Shown here: positions 10,999 through 11,324 of the stretch, piece by piece
Numbering within the stretch: position 1 is the stretch's first letter
How the letters are laid out: each line of letters starts with the position of its first letter
Assembly (NCBI RefSeq): GCF_021298855.1
Contig: NZ_JAJTHI010000009.1
Coordinates: forward strand, 1-61,073
Length of the DNA: 61,073 nucleotides
Direction: 5' to 3'
Source: Gemmatimonas sp.
Lineage (GTDB): Bacteria; Gemmatimonadota; Gemmatimonadetes; Gemmatimonadales; Gemmatimonadaceae
Program-made: the position numbers and the translations under genes
Notes under the pieces: generated by a model
What the model was told of the DNA's origin: nothing
Database searches by the model: none
The model's input: the letters and a program-made list of their open reading frames with translations, nothing else

Positions 10999-11241
10999 GC
11001 GGGTGCCCGCGGCGTCGCGACTTGATTTCGCGCTCCAGTCTGTCGATACTACAGGTGTACGCGGCGATTTTCCCGATTTGACGGGCCGCGCACTCAGCAC
11101 CAGCGGTGCTGACCATCCGTCTAAGTCGCGGTCCTGACGGCCCTCGACGATGCGAATCGGCGAGGGCCGTCGGCGTTTCCGGCAGCTCCGGCGCGAAAGT
11201 CGCCACGCACGACACAACCGAAGACCGCACCATCCCGGTGC
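10999..11241 (+). promoter_or_regulatory. Promoter and structured region ahead of the methionine operon
   Basis: No gene is evident here. A sigma70-like promoter is visible: TTGATT at 11022-11027, a 17-base spacer, GATACT at 11045-11050. Three inverted repeats follow: gcggc/gccgc (11061-11089), an 8-bp stem with a 3-base loop (11094-11112) and a 10-bp perfect stem (11137-11146 with 11161-11170). The last is terminator-like but lacks a clean T-run. This could be a long leader of metY with two regulatory parts, or a separate small RNA of about 115 bases. Confidence 0.5.
11137..11170 (+). terminator. Terminator-like hairpin upstream of the riboswitch
   Basis: acggccctcg (11137-11146) and cgagggccgt (11161-11170) pair perfectly over 10 bp with a 14-base loop. 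The following bases (cggcgtttcc) are only weakly T-rich. It may end transcripts from ackA or from the promoter at 11022-11050. Confidence 0.5.
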
Positions 11242-11297
11242 CGTGGTGATTTGCCGCCGATTGCCGCCACGCTAAACAAGGAGCTAAAACAGCGAGT
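11238..11297 (+). ncRNA. SAM-II riboswitch
   Basis: The sequence fits the SAM-II aptamer. Stem P1 is cgtgg (11242-11246) with ccacg (11267-11271). Its loop starts TGATTT and contains GATTGC, as in known SAM-II RNAs. After P1 come CTAAACAAG and GAGCTAAAACAGC, matching the conserved 3' segment (TAAA...GCTAAAA) that folds back on the P1 loop as a pseudoknot and forms the SAM pocket. The gene downstream, metY, is a classic SAM-II target. High S-adenosylmethionine should turn expression down. A hairpin of 8 bp (11298-11324) lies just downstream and could be the expression platform; the metY ribosome site is a further 28 bases on, so direct sequestration by the pseudoknot is less likely here. Confidence 0.9.
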
Positions 11298-11324
11298 GCG
11301 CCCGGCGGCCCTCCGTCCGGGCGC
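11298..11324 (+). promoter_or_regulatory. Hairpin after the SAM-II aptamer, possible expression platform
   Basis: gcgcccgg (11298-11305) pairs perfectly with ccgggcgc (11317-11324). No T-run follows (gtcgtgttgtc), so an ordinary intrinsic terminator is not clear. Confidence 0.5.

Follow-up and report, generated by a model that had tools for sequence, protein, structure and literature searches.

The leader of the metY-metX-hom operon in Gemmatimonas sp. appears to contain two tandem SAM-type riboswitches: an undescribed SAM-II/SAM-V variant, with a candidate ligand only, comes first and a SAM-II RNA second. Judging by the comparison of folds, covariation, gene contexts and complementarity, we consider this arrangement, with the switching proposed below, to be modestly probable. 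Both RNAs lie on the + strand, as do all features described here, of what we call the window, the whole 61,073-nt stretch of DNA that was analysed. Sequence and covariation make it certain that the RNA at 11233-11308 and the upstream element at 11052-11184 are real conserved structures. They are likely both SAM-type OFF switches of metY-metX-hom; we infer the ligand of the upstream element and the direction and kinetics of both switches. Taken by itself, the SAM-II copy adds one more ordinary member to a known class; what raises the finding above the ordinary is its tandem arrangement with a new variant pseudoknot. The original prediction, which had described only the SAM-II switch, missed this second structured RNA at 11052-11184 as well as a ribosome-site hairpin at 11340-11363. 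Papers given by PMC number are cited from excerpts of their text.

The upstream element was found by aligning the DNA from ackA to the aptamer, where it forms a second conserved block in 25/25 metYX leaders of the genus. It consists of a SAM-II/SAM-V-like pseudoknotted RNA and a terminator-like hairpin, and we treat it as a new family (models R1 and R2). The P1 5' strand (11059-11065, partner 11085-11091) is followed by the U-rich third-strand (L1) segment GATTTTCC (11066-11073), which contains TTT in 64/65 copies, and by the P2 5' strand of the pseudoknot, CGATTTGACGG (11074-11084). The P1 3' strand (11085-11093) comes immediately after P2. A P3-like hairpin, CAGCACC AGC GGTGCTG (11095-11111), occupies the connecting loop. 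The P2 3' strand (11117-11128) reads CCGTC[T]AAGTCG, with a bulged T11122, then A11123 and A11124, and G11125 in the place of A50 of SAM-V; this residue mapping is our own and is based on PMC6061858. The terminator-like hairpin (11136-11171, -28.5 kcal/mol) has the tail GGCGTTTCC with a short T-run. Just 5' of the element, the sequence reads as a promoter-like TTGATT - 17 nt - GATACT (11022-11050), of which GATACT and a TTG box are kept in the genus. A strict sigma-70 scan found no promoter at the element. TTGAC was present within 50 nt upstream of 25/40 non-metY copies, compared with 4.5% of random stretches.

Among the 25 sequences of the genus leaders, two-sided changes were seen in 8/33 pairs. 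When 42 sequences were compared, they were seen in 27/33 pairs and covariation was 0.326 versus 0.121 in shuffled alignments, a value reached by 0/500 shuffles (relatedness ignored). P2 was not part of the search model. Its strands, CGAYTTGNNGG and CCNNC-U-AAGTCG, form 11 pairs with an invariant bulged U, and they were fully paired in 21/27 copies outside the genus metYX leaders (0/5000 permutations, relatedness ignored). Paired changes in P2 include GATGG/CCATC, GAAGG/CCTTC, GTTGG/CCAAC and GGCGG/CCGCC, and the P3-like helix 3 showed two-sided changes in 7/7 pairs. The complementarity between AAGTCG and the terminator arm showed no covariation (111/500 permutations were as good, relatedness ignored). 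In the mechanism we propose, the ligand, most likely SAM, would stabilise P2 and so remove AAGTCG from the 5' arm of the terminator, and transcription would then stop at the terminator-like hairpin.

No Rfam family matched the upstream element, in the window or at related loci. RF00521 and RF01726 gave no match over 11052-11184 or at the element in 11 related loci, RF01826 (SAM-V) matched at the element in 0/12 genomes at E up to 10, and RF01724 (SAM-Chlorobi) and RF01727 (SAM/SAH) did not match it at E up to 1-2. Its anatomy is nevertheless familiar. According to excerpts of PMC6061858, SAM-V and SAM-II have near-identical pockets, built of P1, a third strand in the groove of P2, and P2 running straight into P1. 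In SAM-V there is also a P3 stem-loop, the bulged U47 pairs with the adenine of SAM, the U20:A48.U9 triple faces the sulfonium and A50 reads the amino-acid end; replacing A50 with inosine caused a severe loss of SAM binding. The upstream element shares with SAM-II the strand topology, the UU/AA core (64/65 copies) and the bulged U (65/65), and with SAM-V a P3 stem-loop after P1. The position that contacts the aminoacyl end is A in 139/139 SAM-II RNAs of the same phylum set, whereas the A50 equivalent of the element is G, paired with T or C, in 64/65 copies (all 65 were parsed, one through a fallback pattern that, unlike the main one, does not demand G). SAM-V controls translation via a Shine-Dalgarno sequence in P2a, and in the upstream element a terminator-like hairpin comes next instead. 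Since strand order and core match but the covariance models and the A50 position do not, the element seems to be SAM-II/SAM-V-like by anatomy and, by these tests on its sequence, a member of neither.

The strongest rival explanation is that the element is a diverged SAM-II or SAM-V which current models miss and which binds SAM in the ordinary way. We regard this as quite possible, if short of an even chance. The order P1 - third strand - P2 - P1 - hairpin - P2 equals that of SAM-V as excerpted from PMC6061858, and the almost invariant bulged U and AA/UU pairs point in the same direction, whereas the guanine at the A50 equivalent, the longer P2, the terminator-like hairpin replacing ribosome-site control and the absence of a covariance match at the loci searched argue against it.

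The second RNA of the tandem was assigned to SAM-II in the original prediction because of a P1 stem, TGATTT and GATTGC loops and a TAAA...GCTAAAA tail, all of which are present in the sequence. The identity was borne out by a full-length covariance match to RF00521 (SAM_alpha = SAM-II) at 11233-11308, with 42.7 bits against a gathering score of 36. This copy is the sole RF00521 match in the 4.09 Mb genome, and 0/14 control genomes matched at the family cut-off. P1 is CGTGGT/GCCACG (11242-11247/11266-11271), the tail is TAAACAAGGAGCTAAAA, and the L1 TTT and CTAAA core are in place. P1 and P2 form an H-type pseudoknot, with a P2 register that requires a one-base bulge in the window copy. An extra A is located between GCTAAA and GCG (11283-11294). 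The remaining 24 copies of the genus lack this base, which may either bulge out or make P2 weaker. The aptamer contains TGCCGCC twice, in the loop, where it includes CGC of P2 (11252-11258), and again extending into the P1 3' strand (11262-11268).

The genes downstream are methionine/SAM genes, in keeping with SAM-II. metY (11368-12741, O-acetylhomoserine sulfhydrylase) matched NCBIfam TIGR01326 above cut-off with 627.6 bits, hom (13769-14758, homoserine dehydrogenase) matched PRK06349 with 284 bits (cut-off 205), and the best match of metX (12738-13772, homoserine O-acetyltransferase) was TIGR01392 with 268 bits, below the curated cut-off of 500. The three genes overlap by four bases each, GTGA and ATGA, which together with the NCBIfam matches supports the predicted coupled operon. 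GC-rich hairpin 1 (11298-11324; 8-bp arms 11298-11305/11317-11324) resembles a weak terminator and contains GGCGGC (11304-11309). About 60 nt separate the aptamer from the metY ribosome site, GGGAGAG (11353-11359). Hairpin and distance are as originally described. The doubt about direct sequestration of the ribosome site was right: sequestration by the aptamer itself is rejected for the window because of this distance. That doubt is not new in kind, as the link between SAM-II and terminators is found in excerpts of PMC2258182. In the window, the weak-terminator-like hairpin 1 is succeeded by a distinct hairpin at the ribosome site. In two other leaders, which precede metH (L007, L008), direct sequestration by the aptamer looks likely.

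The ribosome-site hairpin, GGCACT...AGTGCC (11340-11363), covers the metY Shine-Dalgarno sequence. The same layout was observed in 25/25 genus metYX leaders: aptamer, hairpin 1, a variable spacer, GGCGGCACT, a short loop, GAGTGCC behind the Shine-Dalgarno sequence, and ATG. The hairpin GGCACT(C)/(G)AGTGCC is present in all of them with a mean z of -2.8. GGCGGCACT is invariant in 25/25, and not one of the 17 columns 5' of it is invariant. Its first three bases lie outside the hairpin and extend a 7-base complement to the TGCCGCC found twice in the aptamer. In each of the 25 leaders the 5' arm of the hairpin carries an invariant, aptamer-complementary GGCGGCA. In the window we propose TGGCGGCA (11336-11343) as an anti-sequestor site, based on the invariance of GGCGGCACT and on folds of truncated transcripts. 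The hairpin together with GGCGGCA in 25/25 leaders makes translational switching at a distance plausible, as read from these sequences. In a sister genus (L253, L254) the module is doubled. G336 has GGCGGCGTCCG..CGGACGCC in its place, which is a paired change, but there the module leaves the ribosome site uncovered.

We then considered how such a switch could work. In pseudoknot-free equilibrium folds without SAM, the ribosome-site hairpin had P>=0.9 in 17/25 leaders and the anti-sequestor reached at least 0.3 in only 7/25. Simple equilibrium switching is therefore unsupported; the hairpin wins in both states, so any switch must be kinetic. When transcripts were cut before the ribosome-site arm, pairing between the aptamer and GGCGGCA had P 0.80-0.99 in 25/25. 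Dinucleotide shuffles of the segment gave aptamer pairing with P>=0.5 in 36% of 1000, so a single sequence proves little. The metY leader is likely a co-transcriptional switch. With SAM bound, the GCCGCC strands would be locked in P1/P2, so that GGCGGCACT could form the hairpin that masks the metY ribosome site, and some transcripts may in addition terminate at hairpin 1. In the absence of SAM, the newly made aptamer strand would pair with GGCGGCA ahead of synthesis of the ribosome-site arm, and translation of metY would follow.

Alternatively, SAM-II could act solely via transcription attenuation at hairpin 1 (11298-11324), with a constitutive ribosome-site hairpin that sets the translation level. 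Terminator platforms dominate the phylum: a T-tail score of at least 2.5 was found in 75/114 leaders outside the genus metYX set, where GC-rich hairpins with T-tails predominate. The window's own genome has short T-tracts at convergent gene ends, and the equilibrium folds mentioned above retain the ribosome-site hairpin in both states. Against this, 23/25 genus metYX leaders have a weak T-tail at hairpin 1 and only 2/25 reach the score of 2.5 (the choice of stem lowers some scores), and the terminator scan of the window found no terminator-like site. Moreover, one leader with a broken hairpin 1 (L033) keeps both GGCGGCACT and the ribosome-site hairpin. We consider attenuation as the sole mode to be on the unlikely side, and prefer the distant translational switch.

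Three further candidates were rejected. AAGGAG (11278-11283) would resemble the distant Shine-Dalgarno sequence of S. meliloti, but since it reads AACGAG, AAAGCG or AAGGTG in relatives it is not conserved. A SAM-V concealed in the ribosome-site hairpin had no Rfam match there. For a trans-acting target, GGCGGCACT..GAGTGCC recurs in the genus genomes mainly at metY, and the remaining occurrences are chance-like, with reversed-pattern controls matching too. As a separate observation, in CGS-like (metB-type) leaders (L124, L126, L133) a strong terminator precedes a ribosome-site hairpin whose sequence is quite different (CACCTCG..CGAGGTG), a two-step layout as in metY.

The Gemmatimonadota host, inferred from the DNA in the original prediction, holds, and SAM-II is common in this phylum. 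RF00521 matched 262/395 Gemmatimonadota genomes at E<=0.001, with 221 above cut-off, and 27/30 genomes of the window's genus. We analysed 139 SAM-II leaders, taken mostly from the top of the phylum and genus match lists (L135, a duplicate of L026, was left out). They precede metH-like genes (56 in the largest cluster), metF, metY/metX, CGS-like genes, panB, a PALP-family enzyme, hom and others. The aptamer loop strand matched its own terminator arm better than the arms of other leaders (0/500 permutations; 56 distinct cases, 14/139 leaders unparsed, relatedness ignored). The P2 pseudoknot covaries as well: the three distal pairs were fully paired in 83/120 parsed leaders, and 0/2000 permutations reached the observed total (19/139 unparsed, relatedness ignored). 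Frequency, T-tailed hairpins, own-arm fit and P2 covariation together suggest that SAM-II is a main SAM sensor of Gemmatimonadota which mostly looks like a transcription attenuator. This is in line with PMC2258182, whose excerpts name terminators as the commonest SAM-II association, and with PMC1273637. The predicted extension of the host range stands as far as Gemmatimonadota are concerned, but excerpts of the same two papers had already placed SAM-II outside alphaproteobacteria.

Some SAM-II leaders of the phylum had unusual features or targets. The SAM-II of L051, L058-L060, L084, L221 and L225 is a variant that reads ACTAAA, with its loop (TTGTG) altered to match as a paired P2 change. Its operon includes an AAA_5 ATPase, a VWA/metallopeptidase-like gene in L225 and a diverged MetK-like gene (150 and 142 bits, cut-off 309), and its ribosome site likewise lies inside a strong hairpin. 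A genus-specific SAM-II with a firm terminator precedes a RimK-like ATP-grasp gene (L056, L057, L122, L123, L125, L127-L132, L222), an unusual target that is followed by an SfnG-like monooxygenase gene in L222. In L088 and L223, SAM-II precedes genes for a TonB-dependent receptor and an amino-acid permease, with methionine or cobalamin uptake as possible functions. We found no paper linking SAM-II or metK riboswitches to Gemmatimonadota; subscription papers were mostly outside our coverage, so an earlier description is possible. A 2017 paper reportedly presented 224 candidate RNAs.

The upstream element is rarer. Model R1 found it in 43/298 Gemmatimonadota genomes and the wider model R2 in 59/395, with 64 matches of which 62 had E<1e-8; as both models derive from the genus, these searches could overlook forms with CTAAA. 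In 8 genomes of other phyla R2 had no match at E<0.01 (nor at <0.05), too few genomes to speak of phylum-specificity. We read the surroundings of 40 copies beyond the metYX leaders of the genus: 14 stand directly before metK, 15 before a SAM-I-like RNA, two before SAM-II (L287, L335) and nine elsewhere. The metK cases are on the same strand with 31-123 nt to the MetK motif, and 4/4 MetK proteins tested were above the curated cut-off. The 15 partners are called SAM-I-like because of a shared sequence pattern: RF00162 exceeded its cut-off in L325 only (48.5 bits), stayed below it in L304 (42.3 bits) and L289 (37.7 bits), and did not match the remaining partners. These GC-rich RNAs (L288-L290, L292, L300, L301, L304, L305, L309, L310, L312, L320, L321, L325, L329), most of them below or far below the RF00162 cut-off, may be a distinct SAM-I/IV variant. 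The nine other contexts are L298, L299 (peroxiredoxin), L334 (an unnamed protein) and six with one unnamed protein family or its site. In L298 the element leads a gene, which we take to be OsmC-like, and then a Cys/Met PLP enzyme. Second copies (L297, L311, L331, L332, L333) stand before genes of an unnamed protein family, about 265 residues long and with no Pfam match in the two proteins tested. In L319 (G383) the element is intact and the SAM-II behind it looks decayed.

Because of the metK and SAM riboswitch neighbours, SAM is our first guess for the ligand of the upstream element. Excerpts of PMC2864571 report a metK-linked SAM-Chlorobi motif without SAM or SAH binding, so the metK association alone is no proof of a SAM ligand. 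The boldest alternative would be decarboxylated SAM. Taken furthest, the element would be a separate class of the SAM-II/SAM-V fold, seen so far in Gemmatimonadota only, in which the SAM-reading adenine became a paired guanine. Its ligand would be either a modified compound such as decarboxylated SAM or SAM itself, bound via new contacts, and it would form two-input SAM-economy gates with SAM-I or SAM-II on met operons while acting alone on metK. We hold this full proposal to be doubtful. That the element is an independent small RNA or a protein-binding leader near SAM genes by chance is quite unlikely: promoter-like boxes and a terminator-like hairpin flank it and the nine contexts have neither metK nor a SAM riboswitch, yet it keeps the SAM-II/V-like core in 64/65 copies, is directly upstream on the same strand in 14 metK cases and adjoins two other SAM riboswitch classes.

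With their hundreds of SAM-II copies, of which the window's is one, Gemmatimonadota extend the known use of SAM-II by a whole phylum. The upstream RNA matters more, as a third pseudoknot of the SAM-II/SAM-V type that occurs in front of metK and next to RNAs of two further SAM riboswitch classes. Its natural change hits the exact residue whose inosine substitution nearly abolished SAM binding in SAM-V, as excerpted from the paper cited above. It allows a direct test of ligand change in the SAM-II/SAM-V fold, a step of the kind by which a SAM-I variant became a spermidine sensor (excerpts of PMC10853860), and of the reason for combining several kinds of SAM sensor in front of a single operon.

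Finally, we compared both RNAs with the closest known systems. The window SAM-II (11233-11308) shares P1, the L1 TTT, the P2 pseudoknot and GCTAAA with RF00521 and its long-loop form RF01726, and its target metY is also a core SAM_alpha target in alphaproteobacteria (excerpts of PMC4239095). Unlike typical SAM-II, it has a distant ribosome site with its own hairpin, a second aptamer-complementary site and a one-base insertion in the P2 linker. The upstream element shares with SAM-V (PMC6061858, in part) the strand order, the hairpin after P1, the bulged U and the flanking UU/AA pairs, and differs in G for A50, the 11-pair P2, the terminator-like hairpin and the failure of RF01826 in 12 genomes. 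Like SAM/SAH and SAM-Chlorobi RNAs (PMC2864571, in part) it occurs before metK, but unlike them it has no Rfam match. The S. meliloti metA SAM-II (excerpts of PMC9373788) combines a terminator with translation control at a distance, as proposed here; its Shine-Dalgarno sequence is inside the aptamer with the start codon 74 nt downstream, whereas in the window it sits in a hairpin of its own beside the start. Tandem SAM-II/SAM-V and tandem SAM-II leaders (excerpts of PMC9481103) likewise pair two SAM-type aptamers, with transcription control and then translation control. There SAM-II comes first with a terminator, while here the new variant comes first and SAM-II second.
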